DNA of 64,000 nt from an uncultured Bacteroidales bacterium (GTDB taxonomy: Bacteria > Bacteroidota > Bacteroidia > Bacteroidales > Muribaculaceae). The stretch covers positions 168,945 through 232,944 of the forward strand of contig CACYGX010000007.1 of assembly GCA_902774055.1 (NCBI GenBank), given 5' to 3'. Numbering within the stretch: the first letter of the stretch is position 1; every line of letters starts with the position of its first letter. The translations under genes were made by a program, and so were the position numbers. The notes beneath the pieces were generated by a model. The model worked only from the letters and a program-made list of their open reading frames with translations, ran no database searches and was not told where the DNA came from. Below are positions 6,916 to 40,544 of the stretch, in pieces.

Positions 6916-6950
6916 CAAAGATAAGTGACCAAGTACCAACAGTAAAAGAC
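6916..6950 (-). promoter_or_regulatory. Late promoter 5 (tape measure operon)
   Basis: Read on the minus strand, GTCTTTTA (6950-6943), 19 nt, then TATCTTTG (6923-6916). The start codon of the tape measure gene follows 22 nt later. Geometry is identical to four other sites in the prophage. The final C of the -33 element is shared with the terminator hairpin at 6950-6977. Confidence 0.75.
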
Positions 6951-6977
6951 AACGACACCATTTATCTGGCGTCGTTG
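6950..6977 (-). terminator. Terminator overlapping late promoter 5
   Basis: CAACGACGCC and GGTGTCGTTG pair over 10 bp (one G-U) across an 8-nt loop. On the minus strand this is followed by TCTTTTAC, which is also the -33 element of the next promoter. It contains the stop codon of the membrane protein gene. Confidence 0.65.
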
Positions 6978-7255
6978 TTCATTGTTTCGACATAGTCATC
7001 AATTTTCTTATCAACTTTTTCCACCCACATCATTATTCTTTCAGGTGGCGGTGATTTCCTTAACAGAATTCTATATATGAACTCTCTTGGCCAGTAGTAC
7101 ATCGCATACAATACACCTATTGCGATTACTAACAAAAGGATTCCGAGAAATATATATATAATCCATAGAAGCAAAGATCCAACTACACCCAATGTAGCTA
7201 GGCTTCCTAACCCTATCATGGATAACATTTCTTCTATGAACTCAAGGATGAACAT
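6962..7255 (-). CDS. Small phage membrane protein, 97 aa
   Basis: One or two strongly hydrophobic segments cover about residues 9-55 (rich in Leu, Ile, Val), followed by a charged C-terminal tail (residues 65-97). It lies between the tail completion genes and the tape measure and is the last gene of the operon that starts at 12,588. I do not recognise a family. A role in the tail or in superinfection exclusion is possible but not shown. It could also be a cargo gene. Confidence 0.6.
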   Translation of the reverse strand: MFILEFIEEMLSMIGLGSLATLGVVGSLLLWIIYIFLGILLLVIAIGVLYAMYYWPREFIYRILLRKSPPPERIMMWVEKVDKKIDDYVETMNNDAR

Positions 7256-7433
7256 AATCGCTTCTCTTTTTATGAGTTATCCTGCAAAAACCATGCCATT
7301 GACAATCAGATTAATATGTTTTACAACATATTTGCTCGCCTTACTAATGAGGTGAGCAAGTTACCGGCAAGTTAAAACAGGCTACGCTCCCGCGCGGCCT
7401 GCCCTGTCAAAAATTATGTCTTAAACAAACAAT
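7256..7433. other. Intergenic stretch with three hairpins
   Basis: Minus-strand hairpins are visible: CAGGC/GCCTG followed by TTTT near 7370-7395 (a possible weak terminator), TTGCTC/GAGCAA near 7327-7355, and ATATGTT/AACATAT near 7315-7332. No promoter of either type used elsewhere in the prophage was seen. The stretch may dampen read-through into the small membrane protein gene. Confidence 0.4.
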
Positions 7434-7880
7434 TCAATGCGTTTGATAGTAGCGGCTGTTGCGGCGCATCTTGTCAGCGTCAAGGGCATCGCTCACCATG
7501 CCTACGAATTGGCGTCCAATTGAATCCGCCAAGAACTCCTTCAGGTTCATGAAAGAGGCATAGAACTTTCGGGAAAACCAGGGGCGTTTCTGTCTCACCT
7601 TAGCACGACCTATATCTCCAGGGTTGCCCCGGGGCGTTTCTCGACCCGTACCATAGTTCTGCCACAGACCATATTCAAGGAAGGACTGCGAGAGTGTGAT
7701 GGCTGTGATTTTGTCATTCTTGTCACAGCGGATTCCAATGGGAGACTCCAGCAGTTGCCCGGTATCGATCACGCCCAGCAGGATGATCTGCTCCTTCCAT
7801 ATCTTGACCATCGTATCGTTGAACGCATTGATGTATTTCTCGCGTTCCTGGATGGCTTTTTCCTCGGTCAGCTCAGCCAT
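7434..7880 (-). CDS. Phage neck / HK97 gp10-like tail component, 148 aa
   Basis: A small basic protein in the neck gene block between the portal and the tape measure. The middle contains IDTGQLLESP, then FLEYGLWQNYGTGRE. Such DTGxL...S and YGTG signatures are typical of HK97 gp10-like or virion morphogenesis proteins that join head and tail. It overlaps the next upstream gene by 13 bases, consistent with translational coupling. Confidence 0.6.
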   Translation of the reverse strand: MAELTEEKAIQEREKYINAFNDTMVKIWKEQIILLGVIDTGQLLESPIGIRCDKNDKITAITLSQSFLEYGLWQNYGTGRETPRGNPGDIGRAKVRQKRPWFSRKFYASFMNLKEFLADSIGRQFVGMVSDALDADKMRRNSRYYQTH

Positions 7881-8371
7881 TCTTCAGGACGATAGACAAG
7901 GTTGGTATAGACATCAAAGCCGATCTGGAAGTAGGCGCAGGCCGTTCCCATGGCAAAGTATTGCTCGATCTCCTGGAACGAAACACGAGGATCCAGATAG
8001 ATAAAGCCCTCCTGGATGCGTGTGCGTTCTTTGAAAAGGACGCTCATCATCTGCCGGAAGATCTCGCGCATCTCGTCTATGCACGCCTGGCGGGCCTTCA
8101 TGTCGTTCAAGGCATGTCGTTTCATCATAAACACCGTTTTGACGCGCCTGGTGTGCGGTGTATTGTTCATCTCGGTGTAGCCGGGGGAAATGTCGCTCAA
8201 GCACACAGCAGCGGTCGCTGTCTGAGCCTGCTCGATATACTCCTCCAGGCCAGCCAGCCCGCTCACCTGGGCGAAGCGGTAGCCCTTTTGTTGTGCCAGC
8301 ACGTTAGTTTCCACCAGACGGCGGAAATAGCTCGTTGCGTCCCAGTTATAATTCTTATCAATGTTTGCCAT
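7868..8371 (-). CDS. Phage tail completion-like protein, about 167 aa
   Basis: I chose the ATG at 8371 (MANIDKNYNW), because a longer frame would run far into the preceding gene. The protein has a mixed alpha/beta composition without recognisable catalytic residues. Its place between the 249-residue protein and the gp10-like protein matches the tail terminator or completion slot of siphophages. Function is inferred from gene order only. Confidence 0.55.
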   Translation of the reverse strand: MANIDKNYNWDATSYFRRLVETNVLAQQKGYRFAQVSGLAGLEEYIEQAQTATAAVCLSDISPGYTEMNNTPHTRRVKTVFMMKRHALNDMKARQACIDEMREIFRQMMSVLFKERTRIQEGFIYLDPRVSFQEIEQYFAMGTACAYFQIGFDVYTNLVYRPEEWLS

Positions 8372-9107
8372 ATTTTCGGTTGAATTCTTCGGCCTCCCTG
8401 GCCAGTGCGTCAAGTTCGGTGAGGGCCCGCCATGTGTCCATGGCCAGCACCTCTTTCTCTTTAGTGATATCTCCTTTTGTCAAAGCTCGGATCTGCGCAT
8501 TCATCGCCTCCTGCAGCTGTTGGCCAATAGACTTTGAATTGCCCAACAGGTTACCGTCTGTCGAGGTCGAAGCCGACACAAAGAAGTTCGGGAACTGCTT
8601 GCTGAAGTAGGCCTTCAGCGATGTCCACCAGTAGAAGACGTTCAGTTTCTCTGCCTGGCCGAACATCAGTTTATCGCTGCCATAGAGCAGCTGGCCCATT
8701 TCATTGAGCAGGTCGTGCCTGGTTGTATTGAGAAATCCCTGGTACAGGTTCTCGAGATACAGATAGTCCTCAAACGGCACACCATTCAGCATCGCATCAA
8801 CGGCTTCCTGTTTCTTGATTACCGATATCCTTACAGGTTTATCAGAGATATCCTCAATCCATTTGAGCGAACGGATGGCGTCTGTTATAATCTCAACTGT
8901 GGTATAGAACTCATTCTTACCCTGCTTGATGAGGTAGCCGTCGCCATACTGGCACACCACACTCAGTTTGCCCCATCTGAACAGGCAATAGGTACGGATC
9001 TGTGCGCCGGACAGGTTGTCGGCGATCAGACCATAGACATAGTAGAGCTGCTGGTCGTCCAGCTCTTGCCATGACTTGGGCATTGTGAGGTGGATTACTG
9101 GAGTCAT
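8358..9107 (-). CDS. Phage structural-region protein, unknown, 249 aa
   Basis: No family is recognised with certainty. It is mostly helical, Tyr- and Leu-rich, begins MTPVIHLTMPKSW, and ends in a charged helix (about residues 205-249). It is separated from the preceding gene by two bases and overlaps the following gene by 14, so it belongs to the operon running from 12,588. By order it is a candidate head-tail connector or tail assembly factor. Confidence 0.55.
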   Translation of the reverse strand: MTPVIHLTMPKSWQELDDQQLYYVYGLIADNLSGAQIRTYCLFRWGKLSVVCQYGDGYLIKQGKNEFYTTVEIITDAIRSLKWIEDISDKPVRISVIKKQEAVDAMLNGVPFEDYLYLENLYQGFLNTTRHDLLNEMGQLLYGSDKLMFGQAEKLNVFYWWTSLKAYFSKQFPNFFVSASTSTDGNLLGNSKSIGQQLQEAMNAQIRALTKGDITKEKEVLAMDTWRALTELDALAREAEEFNRKYGKH

Positions 9108-9109
9108 TA

Positions 9110-9952
9110 TCAGAAGAAGTAACCGGATGAATTCTTTTTATTCTTGAACACTGTAGGCTGGAGATAAAGTTTTGCTGTGTCGCTAGTCGGCCACAGAGGG
9201 AACAAGTCTCCATTGTTGCGGATGTAGTTCACGATGCGGTCCAGGTTCCAGTGGTTGCGGTTGTTGCCACAAAGCTCATACAGCACACAGGAGCGCACCT
9301 TCAGGGCGACCTGGAACACCGTAGCGTTCTCGCCGGTAATCAGCACCTCGCGCAGCTGCTGCATCACCTCAGGGCTGATCCACCTCTCGGCGATGGCATC
9401 CTCAATCGTGATGGCCCGTTCTCTCAGTTGGAGGAACTGGTCCCATTGCTGTCCCTCACGGTTACGATCCATGACCGACAGCACGCAAGTCTTCGGTTCC
9501 TGCAGCAGGGACATAGCGAACCACCCAAAGCGTTCAGTGCCTCTCCAGTCCTCCCGTTTAAACAGGTCAAGAAGCAGCATGTTGATGAAATTATCGCGCT
9601 GCGCGGCCATCTGCTGGATAAGTCTTTCGATGCGTTCTTTGCTGGCTGGAGCCACGTTGCTGTTTGACACAATGCCGAAGCCGTTAGGCGTGAGCACAAT
9701 GTCCAGCGAAGGGATTGCCCGACGCAGCGCATCGGCCACAATCAGCGTCGCCAGATATCGCCATGTGTCTGAAGACGGCTCCGCAGCTATCGCATCCAGG
9801 ACTTCAGACCCGGTGAACGTGTCACGGACCCAAGATTCCGACAGCTCCAACTGGTGTGCCAGCTTCTCAAAAAGCGGCTTTTCTCCCTCCACGGTCACTA
9901 CCACGTTGGGAATCATCGCCATCAGGATATCGTTACTCGTTACTACCTTCAT
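9110..9952 (-). CDS. Phage protein resembling DUF6712, 280 aa
   Basis: The N-terminus (VVTSNDILMAMIPNVVVTVEGE) resembles a family that I recall next to portal genes in Bacteroides prophages (DUF6712-like). It is helical, without catalytic motifs, and ends in a Lys/Asn-rich tail. Its start lies inside the end of the portal gene (20-base overlap), so the two are probably translated together. A head-completion or adaptor role is inferred from this position. Confidence 0.55.
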   Translation of the reverse strand: MKVVTSNDILMAMIPNVVVTVEGEKPLFEKLAHQLELSESWVRDTFTGSEVLDAIAAEPSSDTWRYLATLIVADALRRAIPSLDIVLTPNGFGIVSNSNVAPASKERIERLIQQMAAQRDNFINMLLLDLFKREDWRGTERFGWFAMSLLQEPKTCVLSVMDRNREGQQWDQFLQLRERAITIEDAIAERWISPEVMQQLREVLITGENATVFQVALKVRSCVLYELCGNNRNHWNLDRIVNYIRNNGDLFPLWPTSDTAKLYLQPTVFKNKKNSSGYFF

Positions 9953-11279
9953 CGTTATTCTTGTTAGAGGGTTTCACTTGCTTAGCATCAACGCCTTCAT
10001 CGAGCGTCGTGAGCTGGATGAACGGCACTTCAGGTTTAACGCCCTTCCAGCCGTTGAACTTGATGATGATGCGATGCACCAGGAACATCAAGTCATGATA
10101 GGGTTTCTGCAGGGCTTGGGCGATGGTGTAGAGCTCGCGCTTATCGCTTCCGCTGTTATTCATCTGCGACTTTCCGGGTACAGAGCCAACGAGGTTGCTG
10201 TGCACTTGGAATGTGAAGCAGATCATGTTGACCGACTCCTGGATATCGCTCTCCCAGTCGCCGCCCTCCTTCTTGTCATCGACACGCGTGATCATCACCT
10301 CGTGATTCTCCTTACCGTCTGGCGAAACATAGAAGTTGGCAAACCAGGTCTTGCCGGAGTTCTCGGCTCCGCTCAGGAAGTCCAGGATCTCATTCTTGAT
10401 GGACACAATCTTCTCCTGGCGCTTCTTTGGGTCGGTAATGCCTTCCTGCCTGAAGATGCGTTCAAAGTACTTATCCGATATCTCCACCAGGTAGCGGATG
10501 GGGGATGCGTTCTGGATCTTCGACTTCTTAGCCAGGGCGATGAGCCGTTTGATGTCATACCAGTTACCCTTGAACAGGGCAGCCCAGTATGGAATCGGGT
10601 AATAGGTGTGGTCGCTGGTCGGCATCCTCGTGACGACAGCGAACTTCACTTCCTTGTTTTTAGGATCCTTGAGGCGTTCCTGCAGGTCGCTCCAAGGATT
10701 CTGCTCGTTAAGCAAAGGGATGACCTCGATATCCTTGATGGTCACTTCATCGCGCCAGGGACCATAATAGACCTTATCAATCACGCCGGTTTTCTCGTCG
10801 GCGCGCGAGAAACGGCAATAGCAAGCCTCCTTGCGGATAAGTCTCGAGATGCGTTTGCGGTCCTTGCTCAGGATGATGACACTGATGGCAAATCCCCAGT
10901 GTTTCATATCCTGTGCCACTCCCAGGAAGTATGAAGGCAATGAGTTTTCCAGCATCCACTCCTCCACATCGTCGGCCACCTTCTTGCTGGCGCCGTCGGT
11001 ATTATACTGCAATCCGCTGCCATAGCACATCTGCGCGTTCCACATCAGGCACGTCGATACCGTCTCATCACTCTCGATCAGCTCCATGATGTTATAGGGC
11101 ATACGGTTGTCCCTACCCCACGGCATGAAGTAATTCTTTTCGTCGAGTTTTATGGCATCAATCTTCTGCTCACGGAACACGCTGCCGCTGTCAATAAGGA
11201 AAGCAGCTTTGGCTTGCACCCCGGGTATGTCGTGGATGCTCGGCACCATGATTCTCTCGTATTCTTTTTTCTGACTCAT
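9933..11279 (-). CDS. Phage portal protein, 448 aa
   Basis: The portal dodecamer forms the capsid vertex through which DNA is packaged. This 448-residue protein has the expected length and layout: an N-terminal wing with FMPWGRDNRMPYNIMELIESDE, a central region, then a helical stem and clip (about residues 330-420) ending in a hydrophilic tail. Residues around 383-390 (SVPGKSQMNNSGSDKREL) match the linker seen in Bacteroidales portal proteins. It lies upstream of the adaptor-like gene in the 12,588 operon, although its terminase is in the neighbouring operon. Confidence 0.7.
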   Translation of the reverse strand: MSQKKEYERIMVPSIHDIPGVQAKAAFLIDSGSVFREQKIDAIKLDEKNYFMPWGRDNRMPYNIMELIESDETVSTCLMWNAQMCYGSGLQYNTDGASKKVADDVEEWMLENSLPSYFLGVAQDMKHWGFAISVIILSKDRKRISRLIRKEACYCRFSRADEKTGVIDKVYYGPWRDEVTIKDIEVIPLLNEQNPWSDLQERLKDPKNKEVKFAVVTRMPTSDHTYYPIPYWAALFKGNWYDIKRLIALAKKSKIQNASPIRYLVEISDKYFERIFRQEGITDPKKRQEKIVSIKNEILDFLSGAENSGKTWFANFYVSPDGKENHEVMITRVDDKKEGGDWESDIQESVNMICFTFQVHSNLVGSVPGKSQMNNSGSDKRELYTIAQALQKPYHDLMFLVHRIIIKFNGWKGVKPEVPFIQLTTLDEGVDAKQVKPSNKNNDEGSNE

Positions 11280-11509
11280 AGGTATATGGTTAGTCCGTTT
11301 ATCTTATACAGGCACACATCCCTGATGGTGCGGATCTGGCGACTTGCCAGCAGTTTGATATTGTGGGTGCCGGAGCGGAAATTGTAGCTCAGGCCCACCA
11401 CGTCATTCAGCGTGATCAGTTCACCATCCTTCGTCCAGAAGGTGATATCCACTGGGTCACCGCTGTCCAGCATCTTTCTTGCTGTCGTTATGTGAATCGA
11501 CTTGGCCAT
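11276..11509 (-). CDS. Small phage protein, 77 aa
   Basis: A short beta-rich protein (begins MAKSIHITTARKM) whose end overlaps the portal start by four bases. A segment TFWTKDGELITLNDV and a later beta stretch look like a small barrel or capsid accessory domain. I do not recognise a family. Coupling to the portal gene suggests a head role. Confidence 0.55.
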   Translation of the reverse strand: MAKSIHITTARKMLDSGDPVDITFWTKDGELITLNDVVGLSYNFRSGTHNIKLLASRQIRTIRDVCLYKINGLTIYL

Positions 11510-11511
11510 GA

Positions 11512-12588: not shown

Positions 12589-12593
12589 GGACA

Positions 12594-12628
12594 CAAAATT
12601 ATTTACTTCTCCGTTTCTACAAAAAGAC
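12594..12628 (-). promoter_or_regulatory. Late promoter 4 (portal operon)
   Basis: Minus-strand GTCTTTTT (12628-12621), 19 nt, TAATTTTG (12601-12594). It has the same spacing as the other four late promoters, and the ATG follows after five bases. The -33 element is also the U-tract of the hairpin at 12631-12661. Confidence 0.75.
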
Positions 12629-12630
12629 AA

Positions 12631-12661: not shown

Positions 12662-12682
12662 GCGATGATCTGCAGGACGGCA

Positions 12683-13219: not shown

Positions 13220-13239
13220 AATTCAAAAATTTTAATGGA

Positions 13240-13881: not shown

Positions 13882-13901
13882 TTACTGTATTCCTACGATA
13901 G
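13740..13901 (+). CDS. Possible 53-aa micro-ORF (doubtful)
   Basis: An ATG 52 bases downstream of the TAACTTTG box opens a 53-codon frame. It has a Pro-rich middle (HAPPPPQ) and a hydrophobic C-terminal third, and it overlaps the end of the convergent terminase gene by 20 bases. Nothing recognised matches it and no good ribosome binding site is seen. It is listed because it is the only frame that the promoter could serve; the transcript could equally be non-coding. Confidence 0.2.
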   Translation: MAASHGIPLQSNREAYKDSSGGYAHAPPPPQIIDILIFLLMKKSILMITVFLR

Positions 13902-15513
13902 AGTAGTTACTCGTCATCACCGACTGCGGGAACTTTTCGCACCCGATATACAGCGTATCAAAGGCATCAGTGCCATCGGTACGGTGCTCGAGCAGATCTT
14001 CTTCGCTCTCGGCCAGTTTCTCGCCCGACTTGTTTTTGCGGAAGCCGTTGCGCCCGCGTTCCACGCCTGCAGTCTGAACCGCCAGGATGAGGTCATCGTT
14101 ATTCTGGCGGTTGAAGAACGGCATCAGGCGCTGTTTCCCTGCAAAGCCCCGGTTGATGAGCAGGTACTTCTCATCATGGCGCATCGGGGGGCCAAGATAC
14201 ACGTCTTCCACTCTCCAGCCGCGCAACTCAAACTCGTGGACGATCACCCAGTGAAAGTCCTGGTCATTGACCGCATAGTTTGATCCAAGGGCCGTCGCAT
14301 CATAGTAGAAGACCACCGTCTTCTCGCGATGATGCATATAATAGGCGCAGAACTCGCTCACCAGCTCGGGCAGTTTCCTCTCGTATTTCACATAGAAGGA
14401 CTTCAGCACAAGCAGTTTCTTCCCTCTCGGCTGCCCAGCAACAATCCAGTTGATGTTGGCATTGTAGTCCATCCCGATGCAGATGGGCGCATCAGGATCC
14501 ACGTCCCGGTCGGCACGGCTGTCCAGGGCCGTCGGGTCGGGGTACCAGCCCAGGGAGTCGAGATATTCAAAATCGCTGGCGTTATACTTGTGGCCCTCAC
14601 GCATCGACGAGTAAAAACCATCCTTAGCGATGCCTATGCGTTCACACAGGATCGATGTCCTGAAGGTCAGCGGCGTCAAGTCGCGCTTCATCTGCTTGAT
14701 GTAGTTCTCGCCCAGCAGCTGCAGATTCTCGATCGAGGAGTATTCCTTATAATAGACGGCCACGCTGCGCATGCGGTTCAAGTCACGGTCCAGCAGCCGC
14801 AGCCTTCCCTGCAGGTAGCCCGGAACGGGTTTACCTGCAGCAATCATCTCCCGGATCCGCTGTTTCGTGTGCCAGATTTCCCAGAGGGTCCCCTTTATGG
14901 TCTCAATCAGTTCCGCGTCCATCTTCTCGCGGTAATGGAGGAACCAGGAGCCTTTCTGCGTCTGGGGCATATCACTCAGCACCATCACCGCGTGGTTGAA
15001 GCTGTGCTTGCCAAAGTGGCTCTTGATGCCGCCGTTGGCAGGGAACACTTCATCCTTCAGCTTGTTGTAGTCAATGAACTTCGCCTCATCCACCAGCACC
15101 CACGAAAGCGTCAACGAGTTTGCCGCTCCCGGGCGGTCCTGGCTCAGGATGATGGCGACAGATCCATTGTAGAAGCTGATGACATGCTCATAGTATTTCG
15201 GATCGATGATGGGGCAGGCAAAGGACTTTGGAGGTCGTTTGCCCACGACATAATGGACCCCCTCGATAAAGCCCCACCGCTTCCATGCCGCCAGCAGTCC
15301 AGGGATGGTGTTCGTCAACCCGTGCCTGAAGGTCGGCACCACGATGCCGCCCGTGCTGCCAGGCATGCGCTGCATGTTCCTCAGCCCATACGGCGCAGCG
15401 ATTGAATCCGTCTTGCCGGTACGACGGCCAGCCACGATGACCGTGGTATTGGCACCGATGAGCTGCGTCAACCGTTGGGGCTTATTGAAATATATTTCAT
15501 TCGGCTTCTTCAT
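13882..15513 (-). CDS. terL: Terminase large subunit, 543 aa
   Basis: The packaging motor ATPase and headful nuclease. Walker A is AGRRTGKT (residues 28-35) and Walker B is WVLVDEA (about residue 140). The C-terminal RNase H-like nuclease shows acidic boxes CIGMDYNAN (about 345-355), VFYYDATALG (about 410) and DGTDAFDTL near residue 520. Its start overlaps the end of the preceding gene by 17 bases, so it is coupled to that small-subunit candidate. It is part of the late operon beginning at the ClpP-like protease. Confidence 0.93.
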   Translation of the reverse strand: MKKPNEIYFNKPQRLTQLIGANTTVIVAGRRTGKTDSIAAPYGLRNMQRMPGSTGGIVVPTFRHGLTNTIPGLLAAWKRWGFIEGVHYVVGKRPPKSFACPIIDPKYYEHVISFYNGSVAIILSQDRPGAANSLTLSWVLVDEAKFIDYNKLKDEVFPANGGIKSHFGKHSFNHAVMVLSDMPQTQKGSWFLHYREKMDAELIETIKGTLWEIWHTKQRIREMIAAGKPVPGYLQGRLRLLDRDLNRMRSVAVYYKEYSSIENLQLLGENYIKQMKRDLTPLTFRTSILCERIGIAKDGFYSSMREGHKYNASDFEYLDSLGWYPDPTALDSRADRDVDPDAPICIGMDYNANINWIVAGQPRGKKLLVLKSFYVKYERKLPELVSEFCAYYMHHREKTVVFYYDATALGSNYAVNDQDFHWVIVHEFELRGWRVEDVYLGPPMRHDEKYLLINRGFAGKQRLMPFFNRQNNDDLILAVQTAGVERGRNGFRKNKSGEKLAESEEDLLEHRTDGTDAFDTLYIGCEKFPQSVMTSNYSIVGIQ

Positions 15514-20128: not shown

Positions 20129-20500
20129 TTACTTCTTGAGTTGTTCGAGCAGTCTCTGGGCCTCAGCGACTTCGTCACAGTAGCCCTTCAGCTCGGGGTT
20201 AGTGTCATCGGTGGTCTCGTCGCCACCCTCATTGTTCACCTGCTTCGAATCGGCGGCGGGCTTCTTGCCCAGCTCGGCGATCTTGGCATCCTTGGACGCA
20301 ATCTCGTCCTTGAGCTTCTGGATTTCCTGATCGCGGCTGGCTACGTTCTGGTTGGCCTCATCCAGCTTGCCCTGCAAGTCCTTCAGGTGGTCGTCCAGTT
20401 TGCCCAGCTGCTCATCGGTAAGCTCAACTTTGCCGCCCTCGTCACACTCAAGGGTTGCGAGCGCGAGCACGGCGGCGATAAAAGCAAAAGTCTTCTTCAT
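20129..20500 (-). CDS. Possible internal start: free scaffold protein, 123 aa
   Basis: An in-frame ATG within the protease gene would yield the scaffold part alone. It begins MKKTFAFIAAVLALA (an Ala-rich hydrophobic helix), then a long coiled coil with heptads LxDHLKDLQGKL and IASKDAKIAEL. Separate scaffold synthesis from a protease-scaffold fusion is known in lambdoid phages. No strong ribosome binding site is seen here, so this is a hypothesis. Confidence 0.35.
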   Translation of the reverse strand: MKKTFAFIAAVLALATLECDEGGKVELTDEQLGKLDDHLKDLQGKLDEANQNVASRDQEIQKLKDEIASKDAKIAELGKKPAADSKQVNNEGGDETTDDTNPELKGYCDEVAEAQRLLEQLKK

Positions 20501-21217
20501 TGCGCTTAATACTTGGTTTGTAGTTTCGTTGTTACTAGGATAAAGTCCCCTCAAGAACTCCTTCAGTCTTGAGATCAGGCCACGCTCGTCGGCATCTTCT
20601 TCCATGGGAACGTCGGGCACGGGGATGCCCTCAGCTGCCAGGAACTCCTTCACTTCAGCCGTCATTACCGGCTTCTCATCATCGGGCAGGTCGGTCACCT
20701 CGTTGACGAAGCCCCAGTCCAGAGCTTCCTCGGCGGTGAGCCATCCACCCTCCTTCATCAGGTTGAGCAGGTCGGCCTGGTCCTTCTTGCATCGCGCGGC
20801 ATAGCCCTTGGCGATGGTCAGGTCTATCTTGTTGAGATCTTTCTTGGTCTTCTCACACTCCTGGATGAACTCGTTGAGTTTGTCCGCGTTCATCTGGTCC
20901 CACACGAACATGAACTGTGAGCATTTGTGCACCAGGTACATCGCGTTGCGGTCGATGGTGATGCTCTTGGCGCCCATCGAGGCGATGGTGGCCGCACTCG
21001 CGTTCATGCCCTCGTAGTGGACGTGGACATTGCCATGGCGGCTGAAGGCGGCGCTCACACTCAAGGCGGTGGCCACCGAGCCACCCAGTGAGTTGATGAG
21101 GACGTGCACCTCCTCATCCTTGTATTTATTAAGGATATAGTCGACATAGTCGCTGTCGAAGTTCCAGCCTCCGACATAACCCTTCAGATACAGGTGGTAT
21201 GATTTTCGCTTTGCCAT
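20129..21217 (-). CDS. ClpP-like prohead protease fused to a scaffold domain, 362 aa
   Basis: Residues 1-190 are a ClpP/S14 fold: INSLGGSVATALSV provides the oxyanion strand, Ser is in GMNASAATIASMG (about residue 73), His in YLVHKCSQF (about residue 97), and a downstream Asp is likely. Residues 215-362 form a Lys/Glu/Gln coiled coil typical of capsid scaffolds. An in-frame ATG at 20500 (MKKTFAF) could start a separate 123-aa scaffold, as in lambda C/Nu3. The gene opens the head and packaging operon, with its promoter at 21239-21273. Confidence 0.85.
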   Translation of the reverse strand: MAKRKSYHLYLKGYVGGWNFDSDYVDYILNKYKDEEVHVLINSLGGSVATALSVSAAFSRHGNVHVHYEGMNASAATIASMGAKSITIDRNAMYLVHKCSQFMFVWDQMNADKLNEFIQECEKTKKDLNKIDLTIAKGYAARCKKDQADLLNLMKEGGWLTAEEALDWGFVNEVTDLPDDEKPVMTAEVKEFLAAEGIPVPDVPMEEDADERGLISRLKEFLRGLYPSNNETTNQVLSAMKKTFAFIAAVLALATLECDEGGKVELTDEQLGKLDDHLKDLQGKLDEANQNVASRDQEIQKLKDEIASKDAKIAELGKKPAADSKQVNNEGGDETTDDTNPELKGYCDEVAEAQRLLEQLKK

Positions 21218-21238: not shown

Positions 21239-21273
21239 CAAAATTACAGCACACTCCACAGGCTATAAAAGAC
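21239..21273 (-). promoter_or_regulatory. Late promoter 3 (head and packaging operon)
   Basis: Minus-strand GTCTTTTA (21273-21266), 19 nt, TAATTTTG (21246-21239), with the protease start codon 21 nt downstream. No terminator hairpin is seen just upstream, unlike the other four. Confidence 0.75.
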
Positions 21274-21284: not shown

Positions 21285-21707
21285 TCAGTTGTCCAGCGGA
21301 ATCATGGCTTTATAGGCCTGGTAGGTCACTTCGACCGTCTTGACGGCACGGTCACCGCCGGGTTGGCCAGCCGATGTCGTGATCTTCACCACGGGAGCGG
21401 GGCGCTCCCTGGCGCCGATGAGCCACCATCCGCTGCTGGCTTGGCGCACCATCCACACCACGCCAGTGCGCGGCACGTCGTCCACGGTCATGAAGGTGAG
21501 CGTGGCCTTTTCCACCCTCCCGTTATTGCTGTGCTCCTCAACGGCTTGGCAGGAGGCCTCCCCATTGAGACTGACACAGGTGCCCTCCACGAACACCGCT
21601 GCAGGGATTCCGGCCAAGTAGCTGCTGATGATGTTGGGGGTGACATCTTCAGGCTGGAGATATCTCACTTCGACGATGCCGGGCATGTTGTAACTGTCCT
21701 GTTGCAT
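21285..21707 (-). CDS. Phage protein, unknown, 140 aa
   Basis: A compact beta-rich protein with segments AGIPAAVFVEGTCVSL, GVVWMVRQASSGWWLIGARE and PAPVVKITTSAGQPG. It looks like a small virion or adaptor domain but no family is recognised. It lies between the 22,285 gene and the late promoter of the head operon, so it is probably transcribed with the former. Short direct repeats precede its start. Confidence 0.5.
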   Translation of the reverse strand: MQQDSYNMPGIVEVRYLQPEDVTPNIISSYLAGIPAAVFVEGTCVSLNGEASCQAVEEHSNNGRVEKATLTFMTVDDVPRTGVVWMVRQASSGWWLIGARERPAPVVKITTSAGQPGGDRAVKTVEVTYQAYKAMIPLDN

Positions 21708-21820: not shown

Positions 21821-22285
21821 TTATCGCTTGGGCGGCGTGTGACCCTTGCGGTAGGCCTTCCGTTGCCTGAAAAACATCTGTCGGATGGCTTCCCAGGATT
21901 TCTCCTCGTGTTCGATGCCGTGCCGGGTCATCCAGTCATAGATGGAGTCGGTGATCGGCAGCGACAGTTTCTCCACCAGGTAGAGGTCCTTCCACAGCTG
22001 CACGCGGAACCTGACCATGATCACGTGCGTCAAGGTCTTGCGGGCGTCCTCACTCAGCACGCACCAGTAGGGGGCTGGCTTGCTCTTGAAATCGGGCACA
22101 GCGATGGCCACCTGGCCATCCTCACGCAGCTGGGGCGCCCCGCCTTCCGGCAGCTTGTCAAGCATCATCTCCAGCACATCGTTCTCGGCACTGCCCCTGG
22201 GGAAGCGCACCACGCCCTGAGCGTCGCCCCAGTCGTGCAGGCACCACTCAGTAAGGTATTTCGGCAGTGAGAGGTAGATATTCAT
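21821..22285 (-). CDS. Phage protein, unknown, 154 aa
   Basis: I chose the ATG at 22285 (MNIYLSLPKYL), because a typical -7 box TATCTTTG lies at 22317-22310, inside any longer reading. The product is helical and Trp/Arg-rich, with a basic C-terminal tail (RQMFFRQRKAYRKGHTPPKR, final 20 residues). No family is recognised. As the first gene of its transcript, upstream of the late block, and with a basic tail, it is one candidate for the late activator. That is inference only. Confidence 0.5.
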   Translation of the reverse strand: MNIYLSLPKYLTEWCLHDWGDAQGVVRFPRGSAENDVLEMMLDKLPEGGAPQLREDGQVAIAVPDFKSKPAPYWCVLSEDARKTLTHVIMVRFRVQLWKDLYLVEKLSLPITDSIYDWMTRHGIEHEEKSWEAIRQMFFRQRKAYRKGHTPPKR

Positions 22286-22309: not shown

Positions 22310-22317
22310 CAAAGATA
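22310..22317 (-). promoter_or_regulatory. -7 box for the 154-aa gene
   Basis: TATCTTTG on the minus strand, 24 bases upstream of the ATG. No TTG is present at the -33 position, so it may need an activator. The palindrome at 22349-22364 lies about 32 bases further upstream. Confidence 0.5.
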
Positions 22318-22347
22318 CTAATTTCTTCACTTTCAGGTGCTAATTAC

Positions 22348-25449: not shown

Positions 25450-26082
25450 TCATTGCATAGCCTTCCATTTGGCAGGGATACTCAAGTCAAATTTCTCTGC
25501 CTTGAGGTGGACTACATCAGGCAGCAGACTTTGGTTGAAGCGGGCTTTGTATTTCGACATGAGGATCGGCATACCGCTGCCCAGCGTTGCCAGGTTGCTC
25601 GAGTAATGGTTGGGCGGGAAGAATACGAACACCTTATGCCCAGTGGACTTGGCAATCTCAACAGCAGGAATCATGTCGCTGTCGGCCGACACGACAATGG
25701 CCACATCGCAGTTGTCCTCGTATGCGTCGCTCACTATCTGGGTCGCTATCCTCACGTCAGTCTCTTTCTCCTCATAGGTGTTGATTACGTTGCCGCACTT
25801 GAAACACGTGATCTGCTTTCTCAGGTATTTTCCCAAAATCAGCCTGAACTTGGGATTCTCCTTGTTCGCCTGGAAAAGCGCATACTGTCGCTGGTTCTTT
25901 CCCAGCTCCGTCGGCCTGGCCGAGAAATATTTCACGGCCAACAGTTCCTGGTTCGGCTTCATGAATTTCTCGAACAGTGCGACAAAATCAAGCCAATAGA
26001 AGCGTTTCCACTTGGCTTCACTCTTCAAACCATAGAAGAAATTGAAGCCGTCAATATAAACTATAACTCGTTGTTTCTCCAT
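25450..26082 (-). CDS. NYN-domain (PIN-like) ribonuclease, LabA/DUF88 family, 210 aa
   Basis: NYN proteins are metal-dependent nucleases, mostly acting on RNA. The acidic active site is visible: Asp11 and Asn14 in YIDGFNFFYG, Asp109 in EKETDVRIATQIV, Asp134 and Asp136 in VVSADSDMIPAV. A Cys93-x-x-Cys96 pair adds a possible metal site. It is transcribed alone from operator/promoter B, through a leader that ends in a hairpin and T-run six bases before its ATG. This suggests tight, possibly attenuated expression. A defence or RNA-decay role in the lysogen is inferred. Confidence 0.8.
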   Translation of the reverse strand: MEKQRVIVYIDGFNFFYGLKSEAKWKRFYWLDFVALFEKFMKPNQELLAVKYFSARPTELGKNQRQYALFQANKENPKFRLILGKYLRKQITCFKCGNVINTYEEKETDVRIATQIVSDAYEDNCDVAIVVSADSDMIPAVEIAKSTGHKVFVFFPPNHYSSNLATLGSGMPILMSKYKARFNQSLLPDVVHLKAEKFDLSIPAKWKAMQ

Positions 26083-27285: not shown

Positions 27286-27654
27286 TTATTCTATTTCAAG
27301 ACCCATGATGCTCTTGATAATCTTATTTTGTATCTCCTCAAACTTTTCTACGTTAACGAAAGCATTCATTACTTTTTTAATGTGGCGAAGTTCAAAATAA
27401 GTCATGAAATGAGTGACCACATAGGAATCGTGGTCAAGTTTATCAGAGCCATTCAAATCATTATTAGTTAACCTGACTGTATACTCCGAATGGTGGTCAG
27501 CCGATGATACTAATACAGCATAGAACATCCCTTCATCATCCTGCAATTTGCTATCGGATACGACAATAGCAGGATGGATATGAAGACCATTCTTGTCTGG
27601 GAATATCCAATCCACCAATACTATTTGCCTCTGATTGACGTGCTTCACAGCCAT
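27286..27654 (-). CDS. PemK/MazF-family toxin-like protein, 122 aa
   Basis: The N-terminus RQIVLVDWIFPDKNGLHIHP followed by AIVVSD matches the start of the MazF/PemK fold (usually GDIVLVDFPF...RPALVVS). These toxins are mRNA-cleaving ribonucleases. The later part has VNVEKFEEIQNKIIKSIMG, like the C-terminal helix of the family. It is last of three overlapping genes. The preceding 119-aa protein may act as partner or antitoxin, although it is not a typical AbrB-type antitoxin. Confidence 0.7.
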   Translation of the reverse strand: MAVKHVNQRQIVLVDWIFPDKNGLHIHPAIVVSDSKLQDDEGMFYAVLVSSADHHSEYTVRLTNNDLNGSDKLDHDSYVVTHFMTYFELRHIKKVMNAFVNVEKFEEIQNKIIKSIMGLEIE

Positions 27655-30199: not shown

Positions 30200-30658
30200 T
30201 TACAATTTTATTCCGGAATAATATTTACCACCACGGCATGTGGTCTTGACCCTACGGTTTGCCCTGCGTGTGGTGTAGCTCACATGGATCCAATCTGGGC
30301 GTCCATTGGCGTCTGGGTATTCGCAGATGATCTGGTCAAACTCAATCCCGCTCTGGAGCAGGCAACGAAGCAGTTTCATGTTGTCCTCACGGCTGTCACT
30401 TACGGTTCGGATGTCGGCAGCTTCGCCCTGCATATGCTGTGAGGTCTTGGAAGCGCCAGGCGTAGCAGCATTGACCTTTGGCGAACGATAGCCACTGGAG
30501 ACGATTATTGGCGCACCGAACTTCTCACGCAATGGGTCCAGGACATTATCGACAAGCGCATTGAGGCGCCTGGTAATCTCGGGCGTCGGCGTGTTGTCGA
30601 TGCCCAACTTGGCCGCTGTGCGGCTCTTAGTCAGTTCTCGGATCGTGAAATGTTTCAT
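30200..30658 (-). CDS. Endolysin, peptidase M15A family, 152 aa
   Basis: A zinc peptidase that cuts peptidoglycan cross-bridges. The motif SQHMQGEAADIR gives His75 and Asp82, and WIHVSY gives His125, the three zinc ligands of the M15A family. The N-terminal FTIRELTKS and ITRRLNALVDNVLDPLRE are also typical. It has no signal peptide, consistent with release by the holin encoded just upstream (32-base overlap). Confidence 0.9.
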   Translation of the reverse strand: MKHFTIRELTKSRTAAKLGIDNTPTPEITRRLNALVDNVLDPLREKFGAPIIVSSGYRSPKVNAATPGASKTSQHMQGEAADIRTVSDSREDNMKLLRCLLQSGIEFDQIICEYPDANGRPDWIHVSYTTRRANRRVKTTCRGGKYYSGIKL

Positions 30659-30915: not shown

Positions 30916-30950
30916 CGAAATTACCCCGCTTTTGATACCCGCTAAAAGAC
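30916..30950 (-). promoter_or_regulatory. Late promoter 2 (lysis operon)
   Basis: Minus-strand GTCTTTTA (30950-30943), 19 nt, TAATTTCG (30923-30916). The GTCTTTTAGC block is also found at late promoter 1. Confidence 0.8.
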
Positions 30951-31898: not shown

Positions 31899-31916
31899 CT
31901 TTCTTGATTATAATGT

Positions 31917-37900: not shown

Positions 37901-38390
37901 TGCTGCGGAGGAACGTGAGTGTACCAGGAAGTCCAGAGTTCACATACTCTCCGCCTTCATACATCGCAGCCGTGAAGCGCACGCCGACGTTGTGGGCGGG
38001 CTCGTTTGTGATGAGGTTGGTCGTATCGGAGTTGGTGGCCACACGGGCGATGTAGCGTTCGTGCGTCTCCATCTCAGCGGTCACGTTCGGCTGGTTGTCG
38101 GGGTCGGAGTGGTCCGCGCTCCATGCCTGGTACGTCTCGATGGAGTCGAAGCCGAGCAGGTAGTTGACGCCGTTGATGTTCTCCATCACGAAATGGCCGA
38201 CCTTGTCGCCGAACTGGGACTTGATGAAGCGCTCCACCTCGGCGAAGTTCATGCCCCATTTGTAGCCGTTGGGGATTTCGGTGCCGTACTTGGTGATGGC
38301 GGCACCCGTGTTGTTCACCCCTCCCCATTCATCGGACAGGGAGGTCAGCAGGTTAGTGCCTTCGATGATTATCCTTTTCTCTTTTGCCAT
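31917..38390 (-). CDS. Giant tail-fibre adhesin, 2157 aa, with leucine-rich repeats and a C-type-lectin-like end
   Basis: The probable receptor-binding protein. The N-terminal third carries Ig-like and beta domains. The middle is rich in Tyr, Asp and Asn, with a LamG-like stretch (RVFINGNIEREILLSG). Around residues 1520-1620 leucine-rich repeats appear (LSRLVSLDLRGTYLTEVTLP). The C-terminus from about residue 2080 reads HMWWLPSCGELARFWYWYRV, then YWSSSE and a final TPRAIVAF. This is the DUF1566/C-lectin fold that is often the target of diversity-generating retroelements. No reverse transcriptase is in the window. It is the fourth gene of the fibre operon. Confidence 0.8.
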   Translation of the reverse strand: MAKEKRIIIEGTNLLTSLSDEWGGVNNTGAAITKYGTEIPNGYKWGMNFAEVERFIKSQFGDKVGHFVMENINGVNYLLGFDSIETYQAWSADHSDPDNQPNVTAEMETHERYIARVATNSDTTNLITNEPAHNVGVRFTAAMYEGGEYVNSGLPGTLTFLRSIDGGATYTVVGQEPIVSREENSSVFDSYNIGKYLRDGYQNIIAVRASFSAIGSTYTSRQITVATVTYTSLSLVCLSDWHVPIESSDIVSNGMPLRYRASHAVDAVLHISVECPGGTIAITNELEASTSGVAQNFWLHDTMSYGLKNHGIRKVSAWLTCDDGRGGTLTGATLVNRFMVVDADTAGTNIDKPYLMIQNEVNAAENFMQTHLCDIAVYSPDGSPVTLDINITSEAENYPSGDYDVYYPLQINTEPGVQYPLDASIEIEDVADATIPAYLRIWSGNDNILQRSAGRTYIYVSVDNSQSFAPKAGAAFIINPRMRNNTELHPDQVINAKNGNVVTSTWQGFGFVNDGWVKAEDGLRVLRVLAGQRLNIQYNPFAQFVSSPNTSMTLELDIKVRNVTDENNIVLGVSEDVSGRPRGLAIRAMSGNLFAQSEPNDSETNFRWQEGERTHIVININNQVDTDINGDGLVTDEYYESQGSPSTTRMFARVFINGNIEREILLSGTNAQEFCTGLMSNGGITIGQDGADIDIYSIRCYERMALEAKDVVDNYVSSLPNSDQKRAVHDANAIMSGTRVDVQKVKALGKRVLILHGKEPYKYDTSASGNWWEIHQYDSEGHEIPELSGTICKETGFGEVKRQGSTANTYYYSNLQTKIDDAGSIDVRLEDIHESMTVSEPYEKDGVMVVDIYGGNLGKKDPVAQVAKQYPINNGMVTVPDGWIDGNGKYRGMGFMIAEGTPLATKLVLKINYASSMQSHVTGCLKLYDDLHRAVVGENELQQRVHSARVSKYTEPVFFFTQLDDNSAVVFRGMGNFGAGKMDKPTWGYVKSEHPMFTMIEGSDNDQYLTDCRVPFSTDPDCPECITYVPKDEGYFYGDIQNLDFDAGKTDDDGYPAAAITARLQETWNWIYLHAPSIKRFNGTYVDFLASNPDKRYKYWCSSGDDAFLLKRYDGKNNVWRDAGLWNESNKAYDVIDLRTYALTASAYQAYVDSQNTPNHMNLSQLHENFVAAIVSDAKKYIGFYFNVDSLKFHYAFQNHFMAGTDNCSKNTYFVLMPYAKSVTIDGETRQCYLWELHQDDVDTILITDNNGRSTKPYYIDRMHPYDDDNPGESCYMGGGNQLFNLCEAMWETEGSGSEIAAMLKRIFSAMVGLVTDADVANGYSRTLWGCMQKYMLSSQHYFPQMAYNEQARIRYEFPETLGFVSWGKGERHIRPITQSMGSQLQAESQFIKRRLLYMASYAAWGDFEGHNSYRVGLTDAQDSFGFEPRPLPNGNEMSYYLDVTPHQYLYPSGAVGQTAITPRHRVAPGETWHFNIGPASGDTGVSLFAIHLYRNIGNVGDQSVNPNNSATVSGNRLTTFVAEPSVQYEVGGKTVGAYRPNKINLVAPLLRAVSLNGSGIGGTLDLSTLSRLVSLDLRGTYLTEVTLPTSERLTRLQLPASLTKLVINGQPNIGDTSVDEGAVVSIGGIADIEEICIVGNTNIASFTRQTVFNALAADSGLKSVVLDNVDWTGTNAMPIALFEKLLAVDVVDIKGAIEISGTVTYSIAEEMLNKWPSLYDPASELTISYAVVPITSASIICNDYGVNSDYLDEEGRDYHFGIKPSPTNGNNIRKIEWSIQRNGATGNAQINQETGVLHVDALNTAGDVVKIIVSAKITTSSQEFTVTRNIALYEHVAALGDLVYADGTYSDTILEGKTVVAVCFYVNPDNTSDRLAVAIEELDNCVWGLYNNSTSGIPHVTIDGDTSQGAATRCYDVQGLPNLSAVGATPVNESNMRDPTQPDGFKQRTYGESALADWGLIGPCPADFGPIANKVVHAGQYNTQLIIRQRKMVLEGVTIEGFAPTSYYPFAVDPDTPELTQLEAAMNAIAQAKDNKHKQFYWPAASRCYAYQPAVNPGEVLSDKFKAHMWWLPSCGELARFWYWYRVKPNATEPLDIFALAKSIGKFPALEREAYWSSSECSEIRSWFIYRSNSAVLNGNGYAKEGNLTPRAIVAF

Positions 38391-38410
38391 ATTGTTTGTA
38401 TGATTAAATG

Positions 38411-38578
38411 TTAGTCATGAAACCAGCCACGATCATGCGACCAGCCCTGATCATGGAACCAGGCATTATATAAACTGGTGAACTTCTGCCAGACCAGGCG
38501 AAGTCCTTTGTACTTCGCCGTGATTTCCTTGCGGCGCCAAAAGATGCCGGTGGTTTCTTTTCCTTGCTTGTACTCCAT
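38411..38578 (-). CDS. Small tail-fibre operon protein with a Trp/His/Asp repeat, 55 aa
   Basis: ATG at 38578 (MEYKQGKETTGIFWRRKEI), one base after the preceding stop. The C-terminus repeats W(F/S)HD(Q/R)G: FHDQGWSHDRGWFHD. At the DNA level this is an 18-bp unit present about two and a half times (38414-38463). Short, but framed exactly between fibre genes; function unknown. Confidence 0.5.
   Translation of the reverse strand: MEYKQGKETTGIFWRRKEITAKYKGLRLVWQKFTSLYNAWFHDQGWSHDRGWFHD
38414..38463. repeat. 18-bp tandem repeat within the 55-aa gene
   Basis: Unit CATG-R-ACCAGCC-N-N-GAT on the plus strand, about 2.5 copies. Copy number could change by slippage and would alter the C-terminal WxHDxG repeat. 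Confidence 0.55.
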
Positions 38579-38579
38579 G

Positions 38580-39281
38580 TCACTCGTCCTCGTAGGTATG
38601 GTATATCGCGTCGGGGTCAACCTCATCCGCATTGACAAGCGTCTGATATTCGCTCTCAGACAGGAATATGTTCAATGGCAGTCCCTTGATGCGTTCCAAT
38701 CCGTCAAGGATAGCCTGCTGCGTCTCGGGGGAAATGCCGTAGCCCTTCGATCCGTTCTTGACACGGAACGTGACCGTCTCGCCTGTGGTGAGAGTGATGG
38801 TGATGACGTTGTAGCCATCGTCCTCATCGCTTTCGTCAACAGATATTCCGGCGATGCCGTCGCCCTTATCGCCTTTGGCGAATAGGAAAATTGTAGCGTC
38901 CAGGATATGGGCCTCTGAGTTGAACTCTATACCTTCAGGCAATCCCGCATCAGCCGTGACGTCATACACTTCAACTGCAGCACGCCTCTTGTGCCGCATT
39001 GCCCTGCCTTGGTCATCGTGGCAAAGAACAGTCAAGCTATAGCGCCCCTCCGTGATCGTACCAGGTTCAATGGCTACTGCAACATTGCCTTCCATCACGG
39101 CATCAATTTCAATACTCGCGGTACCTTTGGCTAGCACAACTGTGACTGGGTAAGAAGGATTAGGAATAAAATCGGTATAGGTGACCTTAGGTTCACCGTT
39201 TTCGAGGGTTACAGTTTCGAGTTGCAGGGGGATGGCCAGCCTGAGCTCGTTACCCTGTACGTGTGGGATTCTTGTATTCAT
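38580..39281 (-). CDS. Tail fibre protein with a short collagen-like segment, 233 aa
   Basis: A beta-rich N-terminal half (Ig-like) is followed by KGDKGDGIAGISV (about residues 135-147), a collagen-type turn often found where fibre trimers change fold, then VTFRVKNGSKGYGISPE. Such modules occur in Bacteroidales phage fibres and in RagB-like phage baseplate upper proteins. It is the second gene of the fibre operon. Confidence 0.65.
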   Translation of the reverse strand: MNTRIPHVQGNELRLAIPLQLETVTLENGEPKVTYTDFIPNPSYPVTVVLAKGTASIEIDAVMEGNVAVAIEPGTITEGRYSLTVLCHDDQGRAMRHKRRAAVEVYDVTADAGLPEGIEFNSEAHILDATIFLFAKGDKGDGIAGISVDESDEDDGYNVITITLTTGETVTFRVKNGSKGYGISPETQQAILDGLERIKGLPLNIFLSESEYQTLVNADEVDPDAIYHTYEDE

Positions 39282-39284
39282 GGG

Positions 39285-40481
39285 TTATCGATATGCTATA
39301 AAGTGAGCGTAGCGGCTGTTATAGATAATCACCATGACGCCCTCCCCGCTATCCACATCCTGGACTACGGGGCGCGTTCCGTCTTCCCAAATCAGGCTTG
39401 CGGGCCATTTTAGGCCAGTAGTCGTGCCGTCAACCAGGTCGCCGACATCAGAGGCCTCCAGCACGATGCGGTGAATGGCGCCATTGCCATCTTCGCTCGG
39501 CAGCAGGTTAAAGTTCACCGTGTCGGTGCTCGGCTTCAGGATGCACAGCGGGCCGCTCGGGATATCATAGCGTTTTTGCGTTCGGTTCGAGCATCGCACT
39601 TCCTGGACAAGCATACCGGCTTTCGGGTTGGCGTTGATGGGCTCAAACTTGCTGCCCGTCCAGCGATACAGCACATTGGTGTCCCTGTGGCAATAGTACA
39701 CATTCTGCGACGGAACACCCAGCTCGACAGCGTCAGCACCATTGTTCATCCAGCAGTAGATCTTGCCCATGTCGATGTCATAATAAGCATGGCCGTTTGG
39801 GGTCTCTATAGGCGTTTCTCCCTTCATATAGTCAAGAACGACAACTGGGCAATGCGCCCAGCTCAGATGGCCAGTCGCATCCAGCTTCGCCACGTCGGCA
39901 TCATTAGCCTTGTCTGCCAGCGCCTGCTTGTCAGCGGCGGTCATCAAGCCCGCTTTCGACGTGGTGGCAGCAGGCAAGGTCACACTCTTGTTACCAGTGC
40001 CAAACGTAATTTTCAGTGATGCTGAAGTCGTGCCAGGAGTAACTGTTAAGGAACTGACCTTATTCGCTGTGATGTCCAGCACAGCTTGAGCCAACGACAC
40101 TGCTTGTGCGGCGCTCATCACGCCTGCAGCATTCTCGTTTGCTGCAGTCAGGTTCAAGGTCAGCGTCGTGCCCCCCTGTTGGCCAATAGACAGCGCAACG
40201 GCATCAGTGCCGCACACCGCCTGAAGCAGATTAAGCAACATGCCTCTGGCCGTGGTAAGCGCATTGTTCGCAGTCGCGACGGCAGCGTTAGCGGTCGATA
40301 GTGCATCCTGGACCATCGAGGTCACATTGATGACATCCTCCTCAGGAACCAGGAGCAGCGACTTCACAAAGTTCACTATCATCTGAAGGATGTTGCCCAG
40401 GTACTCCGGCGTAATAGCATTGGCTTCCGTCTGCGCACGCATCGCCTCAATCATTGGTGAGATGTTTTCTTGTTGTGGCAT
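39285..40481 (-). CDS. Tail fibre protein with an Ala-rich coiled coil, 398 aa
   Basis: The N-terminal 90 residues are helical, including the Ala/Asn heptads STANAAVATANNALTTARG, typical of trimeric fibre stalks. The middle has SKAGLMTAADKQALADKAN, a motif common in phage fibres, and the C-terminal half is beta-rich. It is the first gene of the fibre operon, 28 bases after the -7 box of late promoter 1. Confidence 0.75.
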   Translation of the reverse strand: MPQQENISPMIEAMRAQTEANAITPEYLGNILQMIVNFVKSLLLVPEEDVINVTSMVQDALSTANAAVATANNALTTARGMLLNLLQAVCGTDAVALSIGQQGGTTLTLNLTAANENAAGVMSAAQAVSLAQAVLDITANKVSSLTVTPGTTSASLKITFGTGNKSVTLPAATTSKAGLMTAADKQALADKANDADVAKLDATGHLSWAHCPVVVLDYMKGETPIETPNGHAYYDIDMGKIYCWMNNGADAVELGVPSQNVYYCHRDTNVLYRWTGSKFEPINANPKAGMLVQEVRCSNRTQKRYDIPSGPLCILKPSTDTVNFNLLPSEDGNGAIHRIVLEASDVGDLVDGTTTGLKWPASLIWEDGTRPVVQDVDSGEGVMVIIYNSRYAHFIAYR

Positions 40482-40509
40482 ATTATTCCATTATTAAAGT
40501 TCAACTTCA

Positions 40510-40544
40510 CGAAATTACGCCACAAAGTGCTTCTGCTAAAAGAC
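40510..40544 (-). promoter_or_regulatory. Late promoter 1 (tail-fibre operon)
   Basis: Minus-strand GTCTTTTA (40544-40537), 19 nt, TAATTTCG (40517-40510). A degenerate copy of the palindromic operator (CGTAAATGTAGA on the minus strand) lies at about 40599-40612, on the far side of the terminator. Confidence 0.8.

Follow-up and report, generated by a model that had tools for sequence, protein, structure and literature searches.

Five promoter-like sites before phage late genes

The stretch of DNA analysed here, called the window, is 64,000 nucleotides (nt) long (contig CACYGX010000007.1 of assembly GCA_902774055.1, positions 168,945 to 232,944 of the forward strand) and comes from an uncultured Bacteroidales bacterium. 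It carries phage genes for virion and lysis functions and, before five blocks of them, a two-part element: the heptamer GTCTTTT and, 20 nt further on, a −7 box. The five sites very probably belong to one class of late promoters, "late" being used because of the virion and lysis genes that lie downstream. They are listed here with their predicted roles.

6916–6950, minus strand: predicted late promoter of the tape measure gene, GTCTTTT-N20-TATCTTTG, ATG 22 nt past the box
12594–12628, minus strand: predicted late promoter of the portal block, TAATTTTG box, ATG 5 nt past the box
21239–21273, minus strand: predicted late promoter of the ClpP-like head protease, TAATTTTG box
30916–30950, minus strand: predicted late promoter of the lysis block, TAATTTCG box, ATG 4 nt past the box
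40510–40544, minus strand: predicted late promoter of the tail-fibre-like block, TAATTTCG box

The exact pattern GTCTTTT-N20-TAnnTT(T/C)G has these five matches in 64 kb when both strands are scanned, all on the minus strand, and none in 100 dinucleotide shuffles of the window, so that the sites proposed in a first-pass annotation of the sequence are all present at their positions and on their strand. That annotation had also described an identical 19-nt interval, and this holds at all five (19 nt after GTCTTTT(A/T) being the same as 20 nt after GTCTTTT). The heptamer alone occurs eight times, again only on the minus strand, and three of the eight have no box at the N20 distance. Promoters of Bacteroidota have the consensus TTTG at −33 and TAnnTTTG at −7. 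All five sites carry a −7 box of this primary-sigma type, TAnnTT(T/C)G, but none has the usual TTTG or TTG at −33: TTT stands there instead, with GTCT in front of it, just as the annotation had read the two halves.

Each site was also said to stand before a late block. The genes that follow agree with this; at the fifth site, the label "tail fibre" is that of the annotation, and the 398-aa first protein after the 40510 site has no match in Pfam or PHROG.

2532–6893: tape measure gene, by PHROG matches
9933–11279: portal gene (phrog_11226, 4e-7), in a block led by an unnamed 358-aa protein
13882–15513, minus strand: terminase large subunit
20129–21217, minus strand: ClpP-like head maturation protease, opening the late capsid block
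30200–30658: endolysin (phrog_894), preceded by a 94-aa protein that is membrane-like by eye

Geometry of the sites and of host promoters

How constant is the spacing, and does the host use it? Gaps of 10 to 30 nt between GTCTTTT and box were tested. In 73 loci (1.12 Mb) fetched by protein similarity rather than by motif, the gap was 20 in 76 of 80 pairs, and in a wider set, part of which was fetched using the N20 pattern, it was 20 in 105 of 108. No such pair was found in 0.49 Mb of host DNA, most of it from one genome. In an alignment of 101 dereplicated sites, the letters of GTCTTTT and of the box being fixed by the scan itself, GTCTTTT follows a T in 67%; besides the box, the start region is rich in A, and there is neither a dyad nor any further strong element upstream. 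Among 106 host boxes before open reading frames (ORFs), there was a weak TTG at a gap of 19–20, and GTCTTTT was absent. Because the host TTG lies 19–20 nt upstream of the box, GTCTTTT occupies the place of the sigma −33 contact, with GTC extending it on the upstream side.

Could GTCTTTT merely be the U-tract of a terminator that closes the preceding block? Strong hairpins do lie directly before four of the five window sites (minimum free energy, MFE, −19.7 to −23.7), and the mean MFE over the 101 sites is −10.5, compared with −6.6 for shuffled sequences. However, the protease site (21273) has no hairpin (MFE −6.6), no more than 48% of the 101 sites, compared with 33% of shuffled means, have an MFE below −8, and termination would explain neither the fixed 20-nt gap to the −7 box nor the absence from host DNA. 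It is extremely unlikely that the heptamer is nothing more than this.

At two window sites, 12594–12628 and 30916–30950, the start codon follows only 4–5 nt after the −7 box, and the first ATG stands at 4 nt in 9 of the 101 dereplicated sites. With so short a distance, the late mRNAs from these two sites may be leaderless.

Copies in the genome and in the genus

The genome to which the window belongs (G000, 3.17 Mb, with the window on contig C7) holds 11 exact copies of the pattern, and the reversed control has none. The statement that no copy exists outside the five sites is therefore correct for the window and incorrect for the genome, which has six more. Unrelated chromosomal matches in large numbers had been named as evidence against a phage promoter; of the six, four are within or next to prophage remnants or fragments of phage genes, one precedes an island and one is unexplained. 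Two, on C6, have an integrase gene as neighbour, and a phage-type gene follows the one and cargo-like genes the other; those on C27 and at C7:1440 precede truncated copies of phage genes; the C18 copy precedes the island, with a transposase gene of IS1595-like type (identified by eye) on the opposite strand; and C4:105581 has no recognisable phage gene nearby.

A motif search in related prophages, as the annotation had suggested, found GTC promoters across the genus, here called Prevotella-like, and in further Bacteroidota phages. In 101 genomes of the genus there were 581 matches compared with 34 in the reversed control (both sums of per-genome counts), with at least one match in 95 genomes, and a related phage was found in Prevotella sp. 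MA2016. In the loci examined, the genes that follow are mostly of one set: the ClpP-like protease, the portal-block leader, the tape measure, tail-fibre-like and membrane or lysis genes, and an integrase-neighbour gene. A wider role for the GTCTTTT class, as machinery common to the whole order, was considered and rejected, since 40 genomes of other genera gave 29 matches against 49 in the reversed control.

Some copies lie in other settings. In islands at L266:9377 (plus strand, G000:C18) and L270:5752 (minus strand, G025:C4), an operon starts 105–107 nt past a GTCTTTT-N20-box whose spacer has diverged; its genes, judged by eye, include an HTH_17-like one and two larger ones resembling DUF3987 and VirE_N, with an IS1595-like transposase gene beside them, and the island may be a satellite that makes use of the late switch of the phage. 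At G000:C6:95176–97427 (L220), cargo-like lipoprotein genes (by eye) next to an integrase have a late-type promoter of their own, as if genes joined the late regulon as promoter-gene cassettes. Inverted repeats surround some boxes, e.g., GCGGTTGATTT...AAATCAACCGC in remnants, and seem to belong to one promoter family.

The candidate reader of the GTC element

What reads the GTC element? From its non-standard −33 half, the first-pass annotation had concluded that a dedicated factor is involved, and the layout, the spread and the co-occurrences seen in the phage comparisons support this. It had named three candidates, the proteins at 41,276, 45,968 and 21,821, which are listed here with their neighbours.

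21821–22285, minus strand: Y154, 154 aa, proposed late activator; ATG at 22285 favoured by homologues over GTG at 22330
22310–22317, minus strand: −7 box (TATCTTTG) of the predicted promoter of Y154 itself, without GTC element
21285–21707, minus strand: Q140, between Y154 and the protease promoter; beta-rich or structural look by eye
45968–46525, minus strand: LR, 185-aa LuxR/GerE-type regulator (phrog_10300) with a Cys-containing N-terminal part
41276–41569, minus strand: small HTH_38 protein
46894–47262, plus strand: Cro/C1-type repressor-like gene, divergent from LR

Fourteen phage groups, chosen through LR or through the motif, were compared. Y154 fits best, being found in all 12 promoter-bearing groups (for G004, on a different contig of that genome). 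The HTH_38 protein, present in three of the 14, was rejected as activator, and LR is missing from several promoter-bearing phages. The genes of Y154 and Q140 come a little ahead of the protease promoter and behind replication genes, which are of unrelated types; in several loci without LR, at least one other gene stands between the pair and the promoter. A Y154 profile led to 44 distinct loci, 36 of which have a GTC promoter (loose pattern) within 2.2 kb downstream; in the other eight, as judged by eye, it is more distant or its box is a variant. All 25 viral-contig loci fetched by Y154 have at least one GTC promoter if T is allowed as second box letter, although several are overlapping or near-identical, L365 has the promoter only before the tape measure gene and L378 has a one-letter variant box. 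A promoter was also found in 12 of 20 further Y154 loci, some of which share contigs with the 44-locus set (e.g., L406/L247, L410/L249); several viral contigs are present twice under different ids (e.g., L162/L362).

LR itself might be the direct activator of the GTC promoters. Its C-terminal GerE domain is clear (PF00196, 4.2e-14; Foldseek matches to GerE/NarL domains with probability 1.00, E of 3e-3 or above), it occurs in 12 of the 14 groups and in 10 of the 12 with the promoter, and LR-related LuxR genes are present in Flavobacterium phages 6H and laban6-1 and, weakly, in Polaribacter phage Leef_1. However, LR was not found in the early regions examined of G045:C34, L245, L247, L249 and L168, all of which have GTC promoters, nor in Bacteroides thetaiotaomicron phage BT-TP2 or two Porphyromonas gingivalis phages. 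Conversely, Bacteroides phage Versailles and the element of G101 at 2.52 Mb have LR and no GTC promoter. GerE proteins usually bind dyads, whereas the GTC site, over the 101 sites, has none. A direct role of LR is unlikely, and by its position LR is an early regulator rather than the general reader of GTC.

The alternative that Q140 is the activator, or that both proteins are required, draws on its place after Y154 in Prevotella-type loci, and a gene of similar size stands at the Q140 position in Leef_1, BT-TP2 and the P. gingivalis phages. Its sequence looks structural, though, and its profile made no clear recovery outside the Prevotella-type group (best E 0.022 with 24 sequences; no convincing match in a wider search), making an activator role for Q140 very unlikely. 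With the other candidates eliminated, Y154 is the most likely reader, and from these sequence comparisons it probably does recognise the GTC element.

The AlphaFold2 model of Y154 has a confidence of 89.6, and the basic C-terminal helices of the model (111–121 and 128–149) could form a DNA-reading part. No sigma region 2 was found in Y154 by Pfam, or by NCBIfam with the 169-aa form. The promoter of Y154 itself has a GTC element in none of 13 loci with LR upstream. In loci without LR, however, GTCTTT(C/A)-N20-box precedes Y154 in L166, L168, L214, L391, L392 and L398, and GTCTTTT-N21-box in L245, L371 and L373; L368 was also flagged by the own-promoter pattern, which is taken as chance, and other loci without detected LR have neither form. 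Such a promoter before its own gene suggests that Y154 probably activates itself in these phages. These promoters and the copies in islands or near host genes are the exceptions to the placement before late genes. At L391 (G000:C36:10655–11113), the window genome has Y154 and Q140 once more; the GTCTTTC-type promoter precedes this Y154, the next 7.9 kb contain no late genes, and the locus is probably a prophage relic.

Several observations speak against Y154. Eight of the 20 further loci lack a promoter, seven of them ending 0.8–2.1 kb past Y154 and one being the relic on G000:C36. Y154 was found in only 37 of the 101 genus genomes, compared with 95 for the motif, and the incomplete genomes G028 and G048 have late-type genes after the promoter and no Y154 that could be found; the other promoter copies without Y154 that were inspected lie in remnants, an island or the neighbourhood of host genes. 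Y154 has no known DNA-binding domain: the window member has no Pfam match, the best Pfam match among 26 members is DUF1931 (9e-4, in two members), and no PDB fold matched with E ≤ 0.001. A profile search of PDB sequences did match designed "Pizza" repeat proteins (E down to 9e-8), with no single stretch passing, and these matches are taken as a repeat artefact. Finally, the compared groups were selected through LR or the motif, and since Q140 is similarly distributed and both may be inherited together with the capsid module, the co-occurrence of Y154 with the promoter could be explained without a function.

Related phages of other Bacteroidota

A like layout is found in phages of Porphyromonas, Bacteroides, Polaribacter and Flavobacterium, with the variants GTCCTTT, GTCTTAA and GTCACAA and with GTC mostly 26–27 nt before the box. 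The promoter was originally called phage-specific; it is a class of phage late promoters, but it is common to phages of several Bacteroidota genera rather than one phage's own. In phages of Prevotella-like hosts, Porphyromonas, Bacteroides and Polaribacter, the Y154 gene stands ahead of that for the head protease. Its best viral fold match is a Leef_1 protein (template modelling score 0.68, E 6e-4, 13% identity), and a search with the Y154 profile picks out a Leef_1 gene for 157 aa, located two genes ahead of one for a ClpP-type protease. Leef_1 carries a LuxR gene according to its phage record and to PMC8776804. The fecal phage scaffolds MT835875 and MT836778 have Y154 homologues and GTC promoters, and one of them led to Y154 in the P. 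gingivalis phages and in BT-TP2. When every occurrence on either strand is counted, GTCCTTT lies ahead of late-type genes and has a box at offset 27 in 4 of 6 cases in BT-TP2, 4 of 8 in P. gingivalis phage 028a (two boxes partial) and 4 of 5 in P. gingivalis phage 016a. The GTCCTTT sites of BT-TP2 are at 10592, 17978, 25812 and 32317 of L384. In Leef_1 there are six copies of TGTCCTTTT, each before a gene (shuffles: mean 1.0, maximum 4); 6H has four copies of ATGTCTTAA before late-type genes with boxes at offsets 26–27, and laban6-1 five of ATGTCACAA, likewise before late-type genes, with the box at offset 27.

An unbiased count of 7-mers before ORFs placed GTC elements at or near the top in five phages: GTCCTTT in five upstream regions of BT-TP2 (0.16 expected) and four of 028a (0.27), TGTCCTT in five of Leef_1 (0.19), GTCACAA in four of laban6-1 (0.16) and TGTCTTA in four of 6H (0.15). 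In 016a, the GTC element was outside the top list. When boxes matching in at least five of six letters were tested, GTC at offset 27 accompanied 23 of 314 boxes in eight Y154-bearing sets (with three more at 26 in 6H), compared with 1 of 319 in six sets that gave no Y154 match, which included four control phages, whole or partial, and 0 of 261 host boxes, mainly from one genome. Counts for single phages were small (1–6), and GTC ranked first of the 64 triplets in four of the eight sets, three of these tied.

Here too there are points on the other side. A box at offset 27 accompanies only four of the six Leef_1 elements, and two of these boxes are poor. The bare 7-mers are no commoner than in shuffles (7 versus 9.5 in 6H, 6 versus 5.2 in laban6-1), and the 6H 9-mer count of 4 merely equals the shuffle maximum. 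The homology of the Flavobacterium proteins to Y154 is weak (E 0.0013 for 6H and 0.049 for laban6-1 in a 24-sequence test; hhalign probability 5%, P 0.008), and the profile that gave the 44 loci missed both.

The GTC element might instead be read by a host factor, an alternative sigma or another regulator, that the phages exploit. It is conserved over phages with unrelated replication genes, and isolated copies persist in remnants and beside some host genes. On the other hand, the host DNA sampled, mainly from one genome, is empty of the pair and of GTC at offset 27, and a like layout recurs in hosts of different classes (Prevotella-like and Flavobacterium), so a host reader is improbable.

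Proposed mechanism and known systems

In the scheme that we consider likely, the five sites would drive a single late regulon. The RNA polymerase of the host, carrying the primary sigma of Bacteroidota, would read the TAnnTTTG −7 box, while a phage protein would read GTC(TTTT) at −33 in place of the usual TTG or TTTG contact and recruit or re-seat the polymerase. An asymmetric element of 4–8 letters at −33, together with the retained −7 box, fits a phage protein working beside the primary sigma. The reader would most likely be Y154, a small protein with its own promoter, encoded just ahead of the first late promoter. LR is probably the upstream switch for Y154 in many phages, and in several without LR the GTC-type promoter of Y154 would provide probable self-activation. 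Late activity, binding by Y154 and the order LR, Y154, late genes are steps that we infer. The chances seem even that this is a late-transcription system common to temperate Bacteroidota phages, in which Y154 would take the place of the sigma −33 contact at promoters of the TGTC type, the letters that follow GTC (TTTT, CTTT, TTAA, ACAA) would drift from lineage to lineage as a specificity code, and LR or self-activation would set the onset.

A phage activator that replaces the −35-type contact is a known kind of regulator. The middle promoters of T4 work by sigma appropriation, in which the activator MotA binds the −30/−35 element and the co-activator AsiA remodels sigma region 4; the −10-type box is kept, and the MotA box, a short asymmetric phage element, stands in for the −35-type contact. 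The sites described here are similar in that the sigma box is kept and the upstream contact is exchanged for a phage-specific element, a likeness of compatible geometry only; they differ in the box, TAnnTTTG, and in serving late rather than middle genes, and no relation between Y154 and MotA appeared in the family, sequence or fold searches made. Lambda Q, which is an antiterminator, and RinA, ArpU and Ltr of Gram-positive phages are late-gene activators encoded at the end of the early operon. The Y154 gene likewise lies just before the late block and has a similar proposed role; unlike with lambda Q, every late block here has its own promoter, and no family match ties Y154 to Q, RinA, ArpU or Ltr. 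Ltr of phage Phi13 is the subject of PMC13123087. With the usual −33/−7 promoters of Bacteroidota the sites share the −7 box and the spacing, but GTCTTTT or its GTC variants replace TTG or TTTG, and they are not in the sampled host promoters. In BT-TP2, the gene of gp8 lies shortly before the first late promoter; gp8 is labelled "transcriptional regulator" in its record (basis not stated), and it matches the Y154 profile (5e-8) and the Y154 of L355 (35%). The same position is held in Flavobacterium phages by phrog_21888, whose function is unassigned and whose relation to Y154 is weak. No description of the GTC promoter class, its spread, the Y154 family or such a Bacteroidota late activator was found in literature titles and the openings of abstracts. 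If the scheme is true, the promoter makes it possible to recognise late genes and prophage remnants from sequence among gut, rumen, oral and marine phages, an unnamed protein family gains a function, and there is a new case of a phage re-aiming polymerase with unusual promoters.

Further features of LR and of the window

The N-terminal part of LR matched no response-regulator or autoinducer-binding domain, and residues 82–121 have mostly low model confidence. Ahead of the GerE domain there is an invariant Cys pattern, C-N-(F/L)-G ... CP(L/M)RGEC ... C, which suggests a putative metal or Fe-S site. No sigma region 2 was found in LR (Pfam, NCBIfam), a weak sigma-70 match being confined to the helix-turn-helix; the relative in Versailles is a "sigma factor" as a label only. 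Versailles, in which no Y154 was found, has boxes that look different, and AT-rich dyads resembling ATGTGTTT...AAACGCAT stand before some of them (L242, at 6862, 22491 and 41050). In the window itself, a PemK/MazF-like toxin gene and an NYN-domain gene (27286–27654 and 25450–26082) lie between the lysis block and Y154.

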